Shown piece by piece: positions 1 to 7,937 of a stretch of DNA of 38,994 nucleotides. Position numbers and translations under genes: made by a program. Each line of letters opens with the position of its first letter. The stretch's first letter is position 1. Source of the stretch: Bacteroidota bacterium (GTDB lineage Bacteria > Bacteroidota > Ignavibacteria > Ignavibacteriales > Melioribacteraceae); assembly GCA_018818165.1 (NCBI GenBank), contig JAHISP010000089.1, positions 1 to 38,994 on the forward strand. Direction: 5' to 3'. Under the pieces are notes generated by a model. The model saw only the letters and a program-made list of their open reading frames with translations, was not told the DNA's origin and did not search any database.

Positions 1-862
1 ATTTGTATTCTTTTACGTCTTCAGCAAATTTTACTTCTACAACATCCGAATATTCATAATTTCCGTCAAAATCCATTTGCTTTAAACGGTACTGTAATTC
101 TCCGTCTAAACCTCCGAGGTTTTTAAAAACCTCGGAGGTTTGAGTATCTGTAAATGAATAATCTTTTGGACTATTTGAATTTCCGTGTCCTTCTAAAAAA
201 CCAATGGTTTCCCATTCACTTTCGCCTTTCACCTTTTTCCTTTCTACTTCAAAACCGTAGTTGTTTACTTCTGTTGCGGTTTGCCATTTTAATGTAACTG
301 AACTTCCGCTTGCTTTTGCAGTAAATACATTGAGTTCTACAGGAAGTGGGGCAGGTATTCCTTCAAAGTCATCAACTGTAATTACTCCAGCCGGATATCC
401 ATCCGCTCCCCATTGGAATCTTGCCCCAACTTTACACGCAACAGCATTTGCCGGAGATGTAAAGTCAGATGTGAGTTTATACCAAATAAAATGAGATGCT
501 GTACTAGTAGAATTATTCGAAATATTTTCTGAAATTATATGTTCAGAAGCATCATACCATTCTACAGCAAGCCACGCATAGCTGCCGCTATTTTCATGAT
601 AAAACCATGCAGAAAGCGTGTACAAAGTACTCGGTGATATCCCGGTAATCATCTCGCTCCTCAGATCATTATCTGCAGTAGTGTGATTTTGAATAACGCA
701 GTACAAACTTTTCGTACCTGTGTGAACGTAGGTATCAGAGGGGGAAATAAATAAATAATTATCTCCCGTCCAATGTTCCGTTCCGCTTTCAAAGCCGCTG
801 TTTTGTATTTGGCTATAAGTTGTAATAGAACTTATAAGAAATAAAAAGAATAATATTTTCAT
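1..862 (-). CDS. Secreted T9SS-style protein with carbohydrate-binding-like domain, 3' end beyond window
   Basis: The frame opens at an ATG at 862 and stays open to the window edge, giving 287 residues without the C-terminus. It begins with a signal peptide (MKILFFLFLISSITTYSQ). Residues about 20-170 look like a jelly-roll, carbohydrate-binding-type domain with aromatic-rich strands (FESGTEHW, SAWFYHENSG, VDDFEG). From about 175 there is the Fn3-like module common just before T9SS sorting domains (PVELNVFTA, LKWQTATEVNNYGFEVER, YRLKQMDFDG). A sorting domain is expected off the edge; that is inference. The last module is closely similar to the same region of the next gene upstream (910-3699), so the two look like paralogues. 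Two repeats interrupt this module: a heptamer array at 218-245 and a 34-bp palindrome at 108-141. The ribosome site is weak (GAG). Ligand unknown. Confidence 0.85.
   Translation of the reverse strand, partial: MKILFFLFLISSITTYSQIQNSGFESGTEHWTGDNYLFISPSDTYVHTGTKSLYCVIQNHTTADNDLRSEMITGISPSTLYTLSAWFYHENSGSYAWLAVEWYDASEHIISENISNNSTSTASHFIWYKLTSDFTSPANAVACKVGARFQWGADGYPAGVITVDDFEGIPAPLPVELNVFTAKASGSSVTLKWQTATEVNNYGFEVERKKVKGESEWETIGFLEGHGNSNSPKDYSFTDTQTSEVFKNLGGLDGELQYRLKQMDFDGNYEYSDVVEVKFAEDVKEYK
108..141. repeat. In-frame 34-bp perfect palindrome, family A copy 1
   Basis: Arms AAACCTCCGAGGTTTTT (108-124) and its exact reverse complement (125-141) with no loop. It lies inside the T9SS-style gene and is translated as TSEVFKNLGGL, in a loop before the strand QYRLKQ. 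A second copy lies at 1271-1304 in the paralogous gene at the homologous position. Confidence 0.9.
218..245. repeat. Degenerate heptamer tandem repeat inside coding sequence
   Basis: Four units of seven bases (ACTTTCG, CCTTTCA, CCTTTTT, CCTTTCT) in tandem. On the coding strand they give the charged segment KKVKGES between FEVER and EWETIG. Because the unit is 7 nt, gain or loss of one unit would shift the frame. The paralogous gene carries a family B palindrome at the same protein position. Confidence 0.6.
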
Positions 863-909
863 ATTAACTCGCTAATAATTATAAACCATTTAACCAATTC
901 GTAAAAGTT

Positions 910-3699
910 CTAACGGAGAAGGAGCATCTTCTTTGTAATAGTATGTTTATTACTTTTAATTTCGTAGAAGTATATTCCACTTGCAAATTTACTTGCATCA
1001 AAGGTTACTTCATGAATACCGACTTTTTCGTTTCCACGAACCAATGTAGCGATTTCTTCACCGATTGCATTGTACACTTTAAGTGTTACAAATGAGTTTG
1101 TTGGTAAATTAAAAGAGATTTTTGTACTTGGATTAAAAGGATTAGGATAGTTTTGTTCTAAACTAAATTCTGTTGGTAATTCAGAATTAATGCTAACTTC
1201 CACAACATCAGAATATTTAAATTGTCCGTCAATATCGAGCTGTTTTAATCTGTATTGAATTACACCATCAAAACCTTCGAGGTTTTGGAAAACCTCGAAG
1301 GTTTGAGAATCTGTAAATGTATAATCTTTTGGACTGTTTGAATTTCCGTGTCCTTCCACAAATCCAATCGTCTCCCAATTATTACACAGATTAGAAATCT
1401 GTGCTACGCAACGTTCTATTTCAAAACCGTAGTTGTTTACTTCTGTGGCCGTTTGCCAATTTAGAACGACTTCGTTTCCATTGTTTATTGCAGTAAAAGA
1501 AGTTAGTTCAACAGGTAATTCTCCGCTTGTTATGTTGTATCTATCTGCCAAATATTGCTCAACTGCATTTCTGTCTTCAGTGCTTAAAACCGCATTATAT
1601 AAAATCACTTCGGCTATATCGCCATTTAAGTAGTAAGATCCGTCACTTCTTATACCAAGCAATAAATTTCCAGAATTTGAAGAGAGAATATTCGACGAAG
1701 ATGTCCCTCCGTCGATTCCATCAACGCGGACTGCGCCACCAGTTGAACTTGCTCTTGCTGAAAAGACGTGTGTATTTCCATCAGAGTAATTTCCATCGCT
1801 TGCTTTATCAAGATAAACTGAAGTTGTTGGAATAAACCTTGCTCCAGCAGCTCCGTTTAAATGATATTCATATTGCTCCAATGAACTACCGGCTATTAAA
1901 AACTGAACATCTCCCAAACTCGATTTTGCCACAAAAAACATTTCATAAGCATTGTTTTGTATTCCAAGTGTAGTAGAAGTTGGCAAATTCATTTTAGATG
2001 TTGTTCCGTTAAAACGAATTATTGGGTTTCCGTTTATTTGATTATCTACCCACATTGGCTGATTGGCACCGTTTGTTTGAATAGCATCATTATCAAAACC
2101 GGAAACATCTCCCCAAGTTGAAACATAATTACTCGAAGATGTTATTTCTAAATCGGCACGCAAGTGCATCTTTAAATTTGCTGTAGGCAATGGCGATAAA
2201 AATATTTTTTTACTTTCGCTCTGAGTAGTATTTGACACCAATTTACAATAATAAAAAGTCTCGTTTGTTAGAAAACTTATTTCTTGACTTACATTGGCGT
2301 CTTGCCCCGCCAGAATGGTTACTTGTTGAAGCGTGGTGCTTTGGTTCAAATTATCGGGATCGGTTCCGTAAATAAAGTAATAGTTTACTGTTTCGCTCTG
2401 TGCGGGGTTGCCCGAAATTGCTCCGTTTGCTGTAAAAGAAGTTGGTGAATTTTGTGTAAGCGATGTTATACCTGGTGTAAGCGGAGGTACTTCAGCCGGA
2501 GTTGCCGAAGCAATTTTCAATTTACCGTTTAGTGCATATTCTGCGTATCCAAATGTATTTCCGGTTCTGATAAATGAATATGAATCCGGTTCGTCTTTAT
2601 CATAAACCGTAATATAAACATCCCAAACTTCATTGCTTAAAGTTATATTTTGAATTTCGTATCCGTTAAGCGTATAAGTGTGTTCAGTACCAGATGCATT
2701 TCGGAAAACATAAGTATGTGCAACATCGTCGCGGTTATAGATTTCAAAAGTAGCCGAAGACGGCGTAGATGATAAACTTTGTATATCTAAGTAAAATCCT
2801 TCTTCGTAATAATAAACATCAGGACTTACATTTGCAAATTGTACCCCGTCAACCGATATAGTTGGAGCGTAACCACCGGCTTGTTCAACAAAAAATACCG
2901 CACTATTTGCCTCGATTGTTATGTTAGTTGCCGAAGGAACTTCTTCTACACTTACATTTACAGCTTGAGTACTACTCGAATTGTATATTTTATAAAGTTG
3001 GACATTACTGCTATTAATTCTTCCTAAATTTTTTATGCGTATATAATCTCTGGAGAGTTTTGGTTCTGTAGATAGTCTTGTGGTTGGGAGTATTTGTCTA
3101 AATAGAATGTAATCGTATTCGAATGTAATAACTTCATTTTCCGGGACATAAATTTCTGATGTTTGCATAGCATAGACTGTAACTGAATTTACATCTTTAT
3201 ACACAACAGTAACGTCATACGAATTATAATTAATAAGAGTCATTAAGCTATTAGATCCGTTGGAATATTCAGGTTGAATATCTATTTTTCTTGTAGGGTT
3301 AACTGCTGTTGCCACAAAATTTTGACTGCAGTAGGTGTCATTTTCGTTTATTACTTTAATGCGGAAATTAATTTTTGTTCGCACAGAAGACAATTGATTA
3401 TTCGGAATAGTTATATTGGCGCTAATATTTACATCACTGCTTCCGGTAACCGTGCCAGGCGTAGCTGAAACGTTGAACCCATAATTTTCGGTTTCACCAT
3501 ACTCAAAAAAGACATAACAATTGGTGCCGTTGGCATTAACAATTCCGTTGAGTGTCGCCGTAAAAGAACCGGCACCTGTATGTGGGGTAACTGCATTAAC
3601 ATTTGTTGCTTTGCGAGTTTGTAAAGTTGGCGTTTGGGCAATATTTTGTGTTACGGCAAGAAAAGTAAACACAACAAATAAAGCAATTTTTGTTTTCAT
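910..3699 (-). CDS. T9SS type A sorting domain protein with LamG-like domain
   Basis: 929 residues with signal peptide MKTKIALFVVFTFLAVTQNIAQ, so exported across the inner membrane. An Fn3-like region follows (about 35-130), then poorly recognised beta-rich sequence (130-400), a second Fn3-like region (about 405-505), and a concanavalin/LamG-like domain (about 510-730; LRADLEITSSSNYVSTWGDVSG is its typical opening, WGDVSG the key part). Residues about 740-840 form the Fn3-like module with NWQTATEVNNYGFEIER. The C-terminus is a type A sorting domain (QNYPNPFNPST, ASGIYFYEI, KKMLLLR), which in known systems directs secretion through the Por/T9SS outer-membrane machine and surface attachment. 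Two palindromes interrupt the Fn3-like module. Probably a surface adhesin or binding protein; the target is unknown. It sits 47 nt upstream of its paralogue. Confidence 0.9.
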   Translation of the reverse strand: MKTKIALFVVFTFLAVTQNIAQTPTLQTRKATNVNAVTPHTGAGSFTATLNGIVNANGTNCYVFFEYGETENYGFNVSATPGTVTGSSDVNISANITIPNNQLSSVRTKINFRIKVINENDTYCSQNFVATAVNPTRKIDIQPEYSNGSNSLMTLINYNSYDVTVVYKDVNSVTVYAMQTSEIYVPENEVITFEYDYILFRQILPTTRLSTEPKLSRDYIRIKNLGRINSSNVQLYKIYNSSSTQAVNVSVEEVPSATNITIEANSAVFFVEQAGGYAPTISVDGVQFANVSPDVYYYEEGFYLDIQSLSSTPSSATFEIYNRDDVAHTYVFRNASGTEHTYTLNGYEIQNITLSNEVWDVYITVYDKDEPDSYSFIRTGNTFGYAEYALNGKLKIASATPAEVPPLTPGITSLTQNSPTSFTANGAISGNPAQSETVNYYFIYGTDPDNLNQSTTLQQVTILAGQDANVSQEISFLTNETFYYCKLVSNTTQSESKKIFLSPLPTANLKMHLRADLEITSSSNYVSTWGDVSGFDNDAIQTNGANQPMWVDNQINGNPIIRFNGTTSKMNLPTSTTLGIQNNAYEMFFVAKSSLGDVQFLIAGSSLEQYEYHLNGAAGARFIPTTSVYLDKASDGNYSDGNTHVFSARASSTGGAVRVDGIDGGTSSSNILSSNSGNLLLGIRSDGSYYLNGDIAEVILYNAVLSTEDRNAVEQYLADRYNITSGELPVELTSFTAINNGNEVVLNWQTATEVNNYGFEIERCVAQISNLCNNWETIGFVEGHGNSNSPKDYTFTDSQTFEVFQNLEGFDGVIQYRLKQLDIDGQFKYSDVVEVSINSELPTEFSLEQNYPNPFNPSTKISFNLPTNSFVTLKVYNAIGEEIATLVRGNEKVGIHEVTFDASKFASGIYFYEIKSNKHTITKKMLLLR
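1271..1304. repeat. In-frame 34-bp palindrome, family A copy 2
   Basis: Arms AAACCTTCGAGGTTTT (1271-1286) and AAAACCTCGAAGGTTT (1289-1304) around a GG centre. Translated as QTFEVFQNLEGF. Compared with copy 1 (108-141), arm position 7 changes C to T and the paired base in the other arm changes G to A, so pairing is kept. Confidence 0.9.
1385..1403. repeat. In-frame palindrome, family B copy 1
   Basis: Arms CACAGATT (1385-1392) and AATCTGTG (1396-1403) around AGA, followed by CTACG. On the coding strand it gives VAQISNLC between FEIER and NWETIGF, a place where related modules have a short loop. The arm core and the CTACG tail are shared with 4858-4878. Confidence 0.7.
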
Positions 3700-4672: not shown

Positions 4673-7432
4673 TTATTTCATCAAAACAAACTTTTTAGAT
4701 TGATTAAACTCACCACTTTGCAATTTGTATATATAAACTCCACTTGCTAAATTAGAAGCATCAAATTTTACTTTGTAATTACCCACATTTTGTCTTTCAT
4801 TTACCAAAGTCGCGACTTCTTTTCCGAGCATATCATAAATTTTTAATGTTGTTTGTGGCACAGAATAGTATTCTGTGCTACGAGGTATTGAATAACTTAT
4901 AATCGTGCTTGGATTAAACGGATTTGGATAATTTTGTTCCAAAACGAACCCTGTTGGAGTTAAATCATCTTCATTTACATCAGTTGTAGTAAAAGTTGAG
5001 CTAAAAGCTCCTTTTCCAAAAGTTCCAATTACTACTTTCCCATCTACTGGACGAACATCAATTGTTTCAACAACTGTATTTCCAATTTCTACAGGCGCTT
5101 CCAAATTCCATTTTGTATCAGAACCATTTAAAGTTGAAGTAGAATATAACCCAGTTGAAGTTGCAGCAAAATAAACTAATCCATCTGAAATTGGCAGAAT
5201 TTTTACGTCTCTAATTGAAGGACCGTTTCCAGAACCATCTGAAAATTCCTCCAAGTTTCCGCTAACAGCCACCCATGAGCTACCGCCATTATCTGAATAA
5301 AACATACTAACTACGCCATAGTTTGAATATGAAACTAAAATACAATTTTCATCGTTTGGTTTTGTGGCAATTGCGGAAATATTGGCGTTTGGAAAATCAC
5401 TTGATGAAATATTTTCCAGTGGTGAATTAATATCCGCAGCATTTGTAATTTTGTAAATTTGTCCGCCATTATCACCAACATAAAGTAAATTATTTTTTGC
5501 CTTTGTGGTTGCTAATGCGGTAACATTCTGATAATCAACAACACCGTTAAAAACTTCCCAATTAATAGAGGTTGGTTCATCATTTCCATTTGGAATAGCT
5601 AATAAATTACTGTTCCGCCAAACTTTATCCCCAGCCGCAAGAAACATAACATTGGGGTTATTAGAATCTAATATATATGGAGTTTTGAAATCAAAATTAT
5701 CTGCGCCAGCAGGTTTAACCAATGCAACGTTTTCTGATAAATCAATTCTGTATATATCACCCTCTTGGCTTGATACATATAAATGCGTACTTCCATCGGC
5801 AATTGCTGTTACCATTCCATCACCGCCACCAGTAACTCTCCAATCAGATTTTGTATTTGGTGTCATATCAAGATATGAACCATTATCTTGCAATCCACCA
5901 GAAAGAAATCCATTATTTGCAGTTACATGATCAATAGCTACTGACCAGAATTGGGTAGTGGTATATCCATTATTTAAGTATTCCCAAGCGACTAAATTTG
6001 CAGTAATATCGTTTGATTTACTAATTCCTCCATCATGAGCTGAAAACACAACTTTAGGATTGGATGGCAAAAAGAAAAATCCATGTTGATCGGGATGATG
6101 ATTTTTGTACATATCAATGTTGTTTTCTGTAGCATATCCACCAATCCAATTATCTGAATTAAGTTTTGTCGCAAATCCATCGGTAGTTCTATAAATATTT
6201 GTACCACCAATAATTACAAAATTTTCATCGTCTGGTTTTACTTTCAAAATTACATCATAGCCAGTTTGAGTTTGGAAACCAGCGACTGGGTCAATATAAT
6301 CTGGAAGATTTTGGCTCAAATCTGTCCAAGTGCCAAATTCATTATCATACCGCCAAAGGCTGGAAAAATCACCTTCTTCGCCTTCAATTCCAAAACCTGG
6401 AGTTGTGGCAACAACGTACAAAATATTATCATTACTTGGCGCATTTGTTATAACAATTCTTTGAATCGAAGCGGGCCAAAATGAAGGAGTAATATTTGTC
6501 CAATCGAATTTATTATCAGAATAATATATTCCACTATTAATACCTGAGCCAAGTGCTGCAAAAACTCTACCACCAGTAGTAACTGAAACGCTTGAAAAAT
6601 GTGATATTTCACTTAAATCACCAGCTCCTGAAATAGAATATTCCCAAGTTTCACCTCCATCAACTGAGCCATAAACTCCTCCAAGACATGCAGCCCAAAT
6701 TTCATCTTGCTCCAAATTGCTTTCATTTATATCTAAATTCCAAACAATTTGAAATGGATGAAATGAATATGCGGGTGAATTTGATTGTGTGTTTACAAGC
6801 GGAACCCAAGTTTGACCGTTATCGTTAGATTTATAAACTCCATTTCCTAACAAACCACCAAGTCCATTACCATCAGGCCAAATGTTGGCGTAATATTCAC
6901 CAGTTCCATAATACCAATTATTCGTTTTCCCACTTCTTGTATCTTGCACTATGCTTGTTACATTTTGAATAAATGTTGGGTCAGTTACGCTTGTCCAATC
7001 TTCTCCACTATTAGTTGAACGCCATGCACCACCTTCTGCCGCTGCCGCAATTAGTATATTGGGATTATTAATATCAGGAATAATATCTTTTGTGCGTCCA
7101 CCTTGATTATTTGGACCTTCTGAAACCCAATTTGCGGATTTAATTTTATTGTTTTTATATTGATACGCTTCTTTTTTTATAGGTAATTTCTTGGAAAATG
7201 CTAATTCCTTTTTTCTAATATCATCTGGTATTTTATTTGTGATAGGATTTTTCAACCTCTCATACTGCCAATTTATCATATCGGTATATGATTTTGTTGC
7301 CTTCATATCTTTAATAATTTTCGATAATTTTGAACTGCTATCAACTTCAAACAAATTTGAAGTGTAACTAACTACAATTAGAACTGCAAAAGCACTAATT
7401 ATTCCAACTAATTTTTTTGCCTTAATTTTCAT
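4673..7432 (-). CDS. T9SS type A sorting domain protein with sortilin/BNR-type beta-propeller
   Basis: 919 residues from the ATG at 7432. I prefer this start to the upstream ATG at 7504 because it follows AGAGG at good spacing, begins the hydrophobic export signal (MKIKAKKLVGIISAFAVLIV) and removes an overlap with the lipoprotein gene before it. Residues about 95-800 carry many Asp-box or VPS10/sialidase-type repeats (NSGEDWTSV, SNDNGQTWVPL, SVDGGETWEY, SDNGGSSWVAV), implying one or two large beta-propellers of the kind seen in surface glycan-binding or hydrolase-like proteins. The C-terminus is a type A sorting domain (QNYPNPFNPST, ASGVYIYKL, KKFVLMK), so surface export by T9SS is expected. 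No catalytic residues could be assigned. A family B palindrome lies inside the sorting domain. Confidence 0.88.
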   Translation of the reverse strand: MKIKAKKLVGIISAFAVLIVVSYTSNLFEVDSSSKLSKIIKDMKATKSYTDMINWQYERLKNPITNKIPDDIRKKELAFSKKLPIKKEAYQYKNNKIKSANWVSEGPNNQGGRTKDIIPDINNPNILIAAAAEGGAWRSTNSGEDWTSVTDPTFIQNVTSIVQDTRSGKTNNWYYGTGEYYANIWPDGNGLGGLLGNGVYKSNDNGQTWVPLVNTQSNSPAYSFHPFQIVWNLDINESNLEQDEIWAACLGGVYGSVDGGETWEYSISGAGDLSEISHFSSVSVTTGGRVFAALGSGINSGIYYSDNKFDWTNITPSFWPASIQRIVITNAPSNDNILYVVATTPGFGIEGEEGDFSSLWRYDNEFGTWTDLSQNLPDYIDPVAGFQTQTGYDVILKVKPDDENFVIIGGTNIYRTTDGFATKLNSDNWIGGYATENNIDMYKNHHPDQHGFFFLPSNPKVVFSAHDGGISKSNDITANLVAWEYLNNGYTTTQFWSVAIDHVTANNGFLSGGLQDNGSYLDMTPNTKSDWRVTGGGDGMVTAIADGSTHLYVSSQEGDIYRIDLSENVALVKPAGADNFDFKTPYILDSNNPNVMFLAAGDKVWRNSNLLAIPNGNDEPTSINWEVFNGVVDYQNVTALATTKAKNNLLYVGDNGGQIYKITNAADINSPLENISSSDFPNANISAIATKPNDENCILVSYSNYGVVSMFYSDNGGSSWVAVSGNLEEFSDGSGNGPSIRDVKILPISDGLVYFAATSTGLYSTSTLNGSDTKWNLEAPVEIGNTVVETIDVRPVDGKVVIGTFGKGAFSSTFTTTDVNEDDLTPTGFVLEQNYPNPFNPSTIISYSIPRSTEYYSVPQTTLKIYDMLGKEVATLVNERQNVGNYKVKFDASNLASGVYIYKLQSGEFNQSKKFVLMK
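4858..4878. repeat. In-frame palindrome, family B copy 2
   Basis: Arms GCACAGAATA (4858-4867) and TATTCTGTGC (4869-4878) with a single-base centre, followed by TACG. It is translated as STEYYSVP inside the sorting domain, between SYSIP and TTLKIYDML, where homologous domains normally have a tight turn. The reading frame relative to the element differs from copy 1 (1385-1403). Confidence 0.8.
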
Positions 7433-7457
7433 TTTTTCCTCTATAACTTTTAATGGT

Positions 7458-7937
7458 TTAATACGTTTCATAAAAATCAATCGAATAGCTATTCTTGTCC
7501 ACATTATTTTTTCCAGAATAGCTGGCTAATACTTTAATATTGCCTTTAAATTTATCGTTTTCTTTTAGTCCAGGTAGTTTTCTACTTAAACTGGGTATTA
7601 AATCATCTGTCGTTTTTGACAATGTGAAAACAAAATGGACTTTTATGGAATCGTTTAATTGCAATGATGGACTCTGTTTACCGCTTCCAAAAATGGAATC
7701 AACTTTTACTAATGCCCAGCAAGGAACTTTGCTGCATGGACTGTTTAAATCCTTTGATAATTTGTCTTTTTCAATTGAAATAATTGTTCCGCTAATAAAA
7801 AGTGAGCCTCTTGGAATATTTAATTCACTTTTAATATGCGAATCTTCATCTGGAATAATTCTGTTATTTGAGCACGCAACTGTTAAAAGTATTACAATCA
7901 GCGACAAAGTAATTTTTATTTTATTAAATAAATTCAT
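7458..7937 (-). CDS. Small lipoprotein of unknown function
   Basis: 159 residues. The N-terminus MNLFNKIKITLSLIVILLTVAC is a lipoprotein signal with lipobox LTVAC, so the mature protein should be lipid-anchored at Cys22. The rest is soluble, with a CSKVPC pair at about residues 68-73 that could form a disulfide, and a beta-rich pattern (LFISGTIISIEKD, WALVKVDSIFG, IKVHFVFTL) resembling an OB-like or small-barrel fold; that resemblance is inference. I do not recognise the family. It lies 27 nt after the 239-residue lipoprotein gene and 25 nt before the propeller gene, so the three are probably one transcript. Confidence 0.75.
   Translation of the reverse strand: MNLFNKIKITLSLIVILLTVACSNNRIIPDEDSHIKSELNIPRGSLFISGTIISIEKDKLSKDLNSPCSKVPCWALVKVDSIFGSGKQSPSLQLNDSIKVHFVFTLSKTTDDLIPSLSRKLPGLKENDKFKGNIKVLASYSGKNNVDKNSYSIDFYETY

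Follow-up and report, generated by a model that had tools for sequence, protein, structure and literature searches.

Palindromes in paralogous Fn3-like modules of an Ignavibacteria genome as probable copies of a RAYT-paired mobile repeat

Two palindromes of 34 bp lie in the same loop of two paralogous genes of an Ignavibacteria genome and differ by a matched change in their stems, which raises the question of how they got there and what has kept their arms complementary. The window analysed is the whole of contig JAHISP010000089.1 (38,994 nt), here contig C41 of a 4.88-Mb Melioribacteraceae genome (assembly GCA_018818165.1). With a probability of about 0.82, we conclude that the palindromes are copies of a mobile repeat of the repetitive extragenic palindromic (REP) type that is paired with its own REP-associated tyrosine transposase (RAYT), and that, most simply, a single landing was followed by duplication of the protein module and probably by copying of arm to arm. 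A reading of the sequence alone had claimed two translated palindromes with a compensatory change in a common Fn3-like loop, and each of these claims is borne out. The arms, of 17 nt (108-124 and 125-141, spacer 0) and 16 nt (1271-1286 and 1289-1304, spacer 2 nt), are 100% complementary, and both copies are read in frame on the minus strand, at what we call site 2 of the module (Table 1). A paired C-G to T-A swap at stem pair 7 separates them; this change from CC/GG to TT/AA alters the peptide (S to F, G to E) and leaves pairing intact. In the window, on both strands, the symmetric double-arm pattern matches only the 108 copy, with 0.00 matches expected from 100 shuffles, and no Rfam family matched the window at gathering thresholds. 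The genes had further been described as two of the type IX secretion system (T9SS); gene 910-3699 does end in a T9SS sorting domain, but the C terminus of gene 2-862 falls beyond the window edge.

The palindrome, family A (the letters A to F are our own labels for repeat families), is dispersed in this genome. Its strict pattern has 9 copies and its relaxed pattern 15, and the strict pattern read backwards has none; the genome stretches that were read hold at least 20 distinct copies at six or fewer mismatches, of which 8 are in the Fn3-like loop, 6 surround two RAYT genes (one of these, L161:1203, is decayed) and 6 are elsewhere. Three copies have the form CCTACG/CGTAGG and lie on contigs C15 and C68, which also bear A modules, and three lie outside any long reading frame (C9, C52 and C66). 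The consensus is A[AG]ACCT[CT]CGAGGTTTTnAAAACCTCG[GA]AGGT[CT]T, and 239 of 242 copies measure 33-34 bp, copies of the phylum relatives excluded. A thus has the size and dispersal of a REP, a palindrome of 20-40 bp in several scattered copies. Its consensus (A[AG]ACCT..AGGT[CT]T) contains neither a GT[AG]G foot nor the motif GGGGWSAS.

Some of these copies accompany transposase genes. The genome has nine Y1_Tnp genes, all above the Pfam cut-off, two flanked by A, one by the second palindromic family, B, and six by neither. A stands on either side of the RAYT genes of C92 and C22; in the sequence of C22 (locus L161), the 3' end of the RAYT gene is duplicated along with the palindrome. The RAYT gene of C34 (L162) has B on both sides as inverted pairs about 30 bp apart, and inverted pairs are the classic REP arrangement. 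Against the NCBIfam RAYT family NF047646 (cut-off 80), L162 (87.4) and L172 (84) score above the cut-off, and L188 (64.4) and L182 (54.6) below it. Another RAYT gene, at C78:11325 (L155), is flanked on both sides by a different palindrome, CCCCACG..CGTGGGG (locus positions 1373-1398 and 1903-1922), and the two are possibly a third RAYT-repeat pair of this genome.

The same palindrome recurs far outside the genome. A scan of GTDB contigs for A gave at least 120 stretches, 33 of them from the Thiotrichaceae assembly JALWSU alone; their titles name Thiotrichaceae, Methylococcaceae, Desulfobacterales, Desulfuromonadales and Geobacter as well as Anaerolineales and other Chloroflexota, cyanobacteria, Chitinophagaceae, Breznakibacter, Ekhidna and Ignavibacteria. 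The same or a near palindrome flanks RAYT genes in cyanobacteria, Chloroflexota, Bacteroidota, Ignavibacteria and Thiotrichaceae. Within the window's phylum, its spread is patchy: 7 of 395 sampled genomes carry A, all of the same order (reversed control, 0), and the sole same-genus genome among the 395 does not. No vehicle for A was found in the plasmid collection, where the 33-nt consensus had no match by megablast (which needs 28 exact bases), or in 2.9 million viral contigs, where A was only counted, in 10 stretches.

To place the transposases, a RAYT profile of seven rows, six of them picked as A-flanked, was searched in 28 A-bearing genomes; 26 genomes matched with 100 matches, and the best 30 loci of the 100, together with four rows of our own genome, make 34 RAYT rows. 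Five of the six own RAYTs without A or B were unmatched by the profile and are absent from the tree. Where A-flanked means an A-like palindrome (eight or fewer mismatches) within 400 bp of the RAYT, 13 of the 34 rows are A-flanked, 12 on both sides and L177 on one; L176 and L193, with one-sided copies at 7-8 mismatches, were scored as not A-flanked, and the copies flanking L178 and the Ekhidna RAYT L188 are variant forms. Fourteen of 36 RAYT open reading frames have within 400 bp the pattern CCTnnnAGG..CCTnnnAGG, in which the nnn are complementary, where 0.000 is expected from 200 base shuffles of each; the 14 are the 13 A-flanked ones and L179, whose core is CCTTGAAGG. Although L161 is only 34-40% identical to the A-flanked cyanobacterial and Chloroflexota RAYTs, the palindrome is nearly unchanged. 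All 13 A-flanked RAYTs have the motif LF[QET], and the B-flanked RAYT has FWQ; the Phe motif is consistent with a footless palindrome but does not single out A. In the RAYT tree, the A-flank label is clustered, as few changes being needed in only 7 of 500 shuffles, yet it falls in several lineages.

Certain unflanked neighbours in this tree bear other long palindromes. In two Chloroflexota genomes, related RAYTs have by them a near-identical 33-bp palindrome, AGGTGACAGTCACYT.., on both sides of L198 and on one side of L180; this is a second long footless palindrome. Copies of A also occur in series: 22 palindromes of CCAAGG form, mostly about 60 bp apart, surround the Ekhidna RAYT that itself holds an in-frame A (L188:1162-3503), and in Thiotrichaceae A copies stand in tandem at about 50-bp spacing (L084:25-153 and L086:2983-3113).

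We also looked at how far the two arms vary together. In 97 copies from 80 loci, pairing continues past the searched pattern by exactly two bases in 75, by three to nine in 17 and by none in 5, two of which begin a contig; pair 7 is C-G in 89 and T-A in 8, with none of the mixtures that the search pattern permitted. A larger set of 254 copies was gathered at six or fewer mismatches to the consensus, pairing not being required, but the consensus itself is palindromic; its cross-phylum rows (L034-L153 and L170-L199) contain some Ignavibacteria. Among the 222 copies of other genomes, pair 2 is AT in 111 or GC in 101, pair 7 occurs in each of the four Watson-Crick forms and pair 9 in three. This variety is concentrated, as JALWSU gives 15 of 18 GC at pair 7 and 14 of 14 CG at pair 9, and Ekhidna 34 of 35 AT at pair 9; the 12 TA at pair 7 are spread over 11 loci, none of them in JALWSU. 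When each locus is represented by a single row, 1988 of 2000 cells pair in other genomes (125 loci; 500 shuffles reached at most 1934) and 202 of 208 in our own genome (best shuffle, 200), figures that are counts and not probabilities, the rows being interrelated. Because pairs 7-9 covary, though they would be loop bases if the halves folded singly, the long hairpin is probably the form that matters.

Reading of A within genes is likewise seen elsewhere. Of the 222 other-genome copies, 13 lie well within stop-to-stop frames of at least 180 aa, and two of the 13 are in RAYT genes, of Niabella and Ekhidna, where A lies between the HUH motif and the Tyr motif, its frame differing between the two genes. 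An NCBIfam scan of the 13, which left out L093, L123, L132 and L140, placed an in-frame A in the SMC protein of a Chloroflexota genome (L112, above the cut-off) and another in a sugar kinase (L138) that is below the ribokinase cut-off and has kinase matches in PDB; L047 is SucD with the A copy upstream of the gene, and L056, L128 and L136 (two copies) had no NCBIfam match. In addition to the 13, CarB of a same-order relative (L207) holds an in-frame A. On the Desulfobacterales contig L136, the two copies (2441-2473 and 2734-2766) are read in different repeat frames within one 241-aa reading frame.

The Fn3-like modules themselves, of which the genome holds 22, show what the loops contain with and without A. 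At site 2, readable in 21 modules, A is present in 8, repeat C (VAERSRS) in 2 and neither in 11, so that the proposed check for homologous modules lacking the insert yields 13 of 21 without A. At site 1, the 22 modules carry B (8), D (1), E (3, one with a changed base), F (2) or none (8), and B lies about 100 bp from A in 7 of the 8 A modules. Differing repeats have therefore reached the same loops more than once. Among loops parsed by script in this genome, strong palindromes occupy 9 of 19 at site 1 and 8 of 19 at site 2, against about 0.5% in shuffles; in relatives, whose 30 best-match loci yielded 23 parsed modules (our own C19 included), there is one at site 1 and none at site 2, in a sample biased to insert-free modules, the query itself being insert-free. 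Multi-family loops are known so far from this genome alone, and the loops would appear, from alignment, to be exposed and tolerant.

An unrooted tree of the modules, made from the 92 codon columns in which no more than one of the 21 is unfilled, orders these events. All eight modules with A fall in a single clade (support 0.997), and A therefore most simply entered once. Module 1189-1464 is sister to C15_5181 (0.985), with module 20-292 next (0.971), and parsimony sets the C-G to T-A change on the branch to the 1189-1464/C15_5181 pair. The proposal that two variants of a palindrome had entered the same loop is accordingly not the simplest, the matched change most simply having come after entry. 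A second matched change, from T-A to A-T at pair 6, marks the C68 module, where one residue is altered (S to T) and the other change is silent; since none of the 253 further copies compared has this state in both arms, it probably originated where it stands. A rough count puts at about 1 in 90 per branch the odds that two changes would by chance fall on bases that pair and give the fitting letter. Module 20-292 (C41_20) has A but lacks B in its site 1 loop, although it is nested among A+B modules on the tree, through loss, replacement or recombination at site 1; gene 910-3699 has B.

These observations can be joined in one account. By analogy with characterised RAYTs, the transposase, an HUH/Tyr enzyme acting on single strands, would bind the folded A hairpin on single-stranded DNA and cut, copy or move it. 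Being 33-34 bp long with few stop codons in its frames, A could survive in genes at tolerant loops; one A copy would, most simply, have gone into site 2, and into site 1 a copy of B, which has the GTRG foot of a REP and is paired with a RAYT of its own, after which the module multiplied through duplication. In two branches, template switching during replication may then have copied a mutation from arm to arm, and such copying is our preferred cause of the matched changes. The earlier suggestion of a mobile palindrome in genes is supported indirectly by copies that are dispersed, that flank RAYT genes and that lie in unrelated genes and phyla, whereas movement itself, presumably by the A-flanked RAYT, is only inferred.

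Several results weigh against this account. L161 scores 73.4, below the NF047646 cut-off, and with some 20 copies read, A is scarce for a REP family. Of the four arm changes in the modules, two (C105_7239 and C15_19776) are unmatched, and the phylum relatives show no gain in pairing (168 of 176 cells; best shuffle, 168). The RAYT tree spreads the A-flanked rows over several lineages, with 7 changes, at least 3 of them forced by well-supported branches, and the sampling was directed, since carriage of A decided the choice of the 28 genomes and the search profile already contained 6 of the 13 A-flanked RAYTs. Against human CPS1, the CarB that holds A shows a net gap of only 4 residues. Nor is Phe specific to A: of the other 21 rows, 12 have Phe, 7 Trp and 2 no motif, and because Phe is so common in unflanked RAYTs we have slightly lowered our confidence in this account and in the broader reading of footless repeats and landing loops given below.

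The matched changes admit other causes. The TT/AA state could have come by recombination with another A copy, or by re-insertion or overwriting from one, and TT/AA copies do exist elsewhere in the genome (C52 and C66). A copy beside the C92 RAYT has identical arms and a GG centre and is one A shorter; this shared centre raises the weight of such conversion, which we nevertheless regard as a minority possibility, as it leaves the C68 state unexplained, two-sided in none of the other 253 copies with our own genome read in part. Alternatively, the hairpin might have a use in RNA or DNA, its pairing being kept by selection and not by templated repair. Two matched changes after insertion, one of which altered the peptide and still kept pairing, are what such selection would give, but we see no use for the structure because 13 of 21 readable modules manage without A; a pair is broken in 2 of the 8 module copies and A occurs also in unrelated genes and intergenic DNA, all of which makes selection unlikely.

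Two further explanations concern the repeats as such. Each half of A is a small hairpin edged by A and T runs, as in a transcription terminator, and the repeats might be ordinary look-alikes of that kind; near-identity of a 33-bp sequence in distant phyla, and its presence on both sides of RAYT genes and in frame within long genes, make this highly improbable. The sequence-only reading had itself named chance palindromy in a conserved peptide as what would overturn it. The peptide TSEVFKNLGG does recur among the paralogues, but with other copies in the genome, modules that lack A, and copies outside genes, round RAYTs, in other frames (NLRGF and KPPRF) and in other phyla, that case is refuted and chance has practically no probability left. 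Copying from arm to arm after a single landing remains the account we prefer.

Among known systems, the closest is REP/RAYT (PMC3733652, PMC6006769), with short dispersed palindromes, flanked HUH/Tyr transposases, some copies in open reading frames and matched stem variants. RAYT genes are flanked by A (C92 and C22) as by B (C34), but the GT[AG]G foot belongs to B and not to A, and A differs further in being near-invariant over several phyla and in the Phe that its RAYTs have in the guide-reading motif. The Trp-Gln region of RAYT has been tied to recognition of the GTAG foot, and the same study reports no REP for subclass 2.1 (motifs NH[YF]H and FQ; PMC6006769), which the A-flanked Ignavibacteria, cyanobacterial and Chloroflexota RAYTs resemble by motif only. 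B may be akin to the 'double foot' REPs of TnpA-REP subclass 2.4, having GTRG..CYAC at both ends in 8 of 27 copies read, at one in 17 and at neither in 2; REPs between the HUH and Tyr motifs of RAYT genes are reported for the same subclass, and A shares that position but is not double-footed (PMC6006769). TIRYTs (PMC3733652) are RAYT-like genes flanked by non-GTAG repeats, some self-complementary and some forming dispersed families; A, compared by motif, is without the GGGGWSAS of their terminal inverted repeats. The Rickettsia palindromic elements (PMC2229807), cited at the outset as precedent, are a fair analogue of the effect, being read in frame in conserved protein genes as A is, but they are 105-146 bp long and Rickettsia-specific, whereas A is 33-34 bp, RAYT-linked and present in many phyla. 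Repair of hairpins by template switching (PMC8794818) yields matched two-arm changes in a single event, although there it concerns RNA genes and not coding DNA that carries mobile palindromes.

REPs have been published, as has their occurrence in genes and in RAYT genes; a footless type across phyla and loops holding several families are new. Four 13-base words of A had no match in the literature searched, though the supplements of PMC6006769 may list A among atypical palindromes, and shorter A words and peptides brought up no bacterial-repeat paper by title among the matches listed. We offer as tentative, and on balance doubtful, a broader reading in which A marks a REP type that lacks a foot, works with RAYTs of the Phe motif and is recognised through its invariant ACCT..AGGT steps, its paired centres varying freely and the palindrome staying near-constant across phyla, and in which the two secreted-protein loops of this genome are a tolerated landing place where several families build new surface peptides, arm copying changing the peptide in paired steps. 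A 2025 survey reports REP motifs to be little alike between genomes (PMC12306157); so constant a palindrome beside RAYTs just 34-40% identical across groups makes a recognition rule testable. The paralogous modules, for their part, form a natural series of palindrome change within a gene and are of use in judging whether matched changes are proof of structural selection.

Table 1. Palindromes, modules and genes of the window
Feature	Positions	Strand	Details
Family A palindrome, 34 bp	108..141	-	CC/GG state; TSEVFKNLGGL; Fn3-like module site 2, gene 2-862
Family A palindrome, 34 bp	1271..1304	-	TT/AA state; QTFEVFQNLEGF; Fn3-like module site 2, gene 910-3699
Family B palindrome	1385..1407	-	One foot (GTAG, minus strand, 1407-1404); VAQISNLCN; module site 1, gene 910-3699
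Family B palindrome	4855..4881	-	Both feet (GTGG..CTAC on + strand); RSTEYYSVP; T9SS sorting domain, gene 4673-7504
Fn3-like module	20..292	-	Gene 2-862; A without B
Fn3-like module	1189..1464	-	Gene 910-3699; A and B
Gene	2..862	-	Carbohydrate-binding domain CBM_4_9 and Fn3-like module; truncated by window edge
Gene	910..3699	-	C-terminal T9SS type A sorting domain
Gene	4673..7504	-	C-terminal T9SS type A sorting domain; holds second B copy

The remaining repeats are less uniform. B occurs in the loop of the T9SS sorting domain in five long genes, 4673-7504 included, and in one short frame. Eleven copies of C, two of D and five of E are present in the genome (the loop of C85_96347, one base off E, excluded); C and E reach palindrome scores of only 3-5 in the modules and count as repeats, their REP status being unproven. 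The strict pattern of F has no copy elsewhere in the genome, and F is a putative family drawn from the palindromic shape of the loop inserts in two sister modules (C52 and C61). In a Desulfuromonadales locus, L117:3015-3060, an inverted pair, GTAGAGACGCAT..ATGCGTCTC, is like these inserts. Repeat C is also read in frame, as ASTPLS, at L246:1501-1516 (C101:52786), in a 394-aa frame of our own genome without an NCBIfam match.

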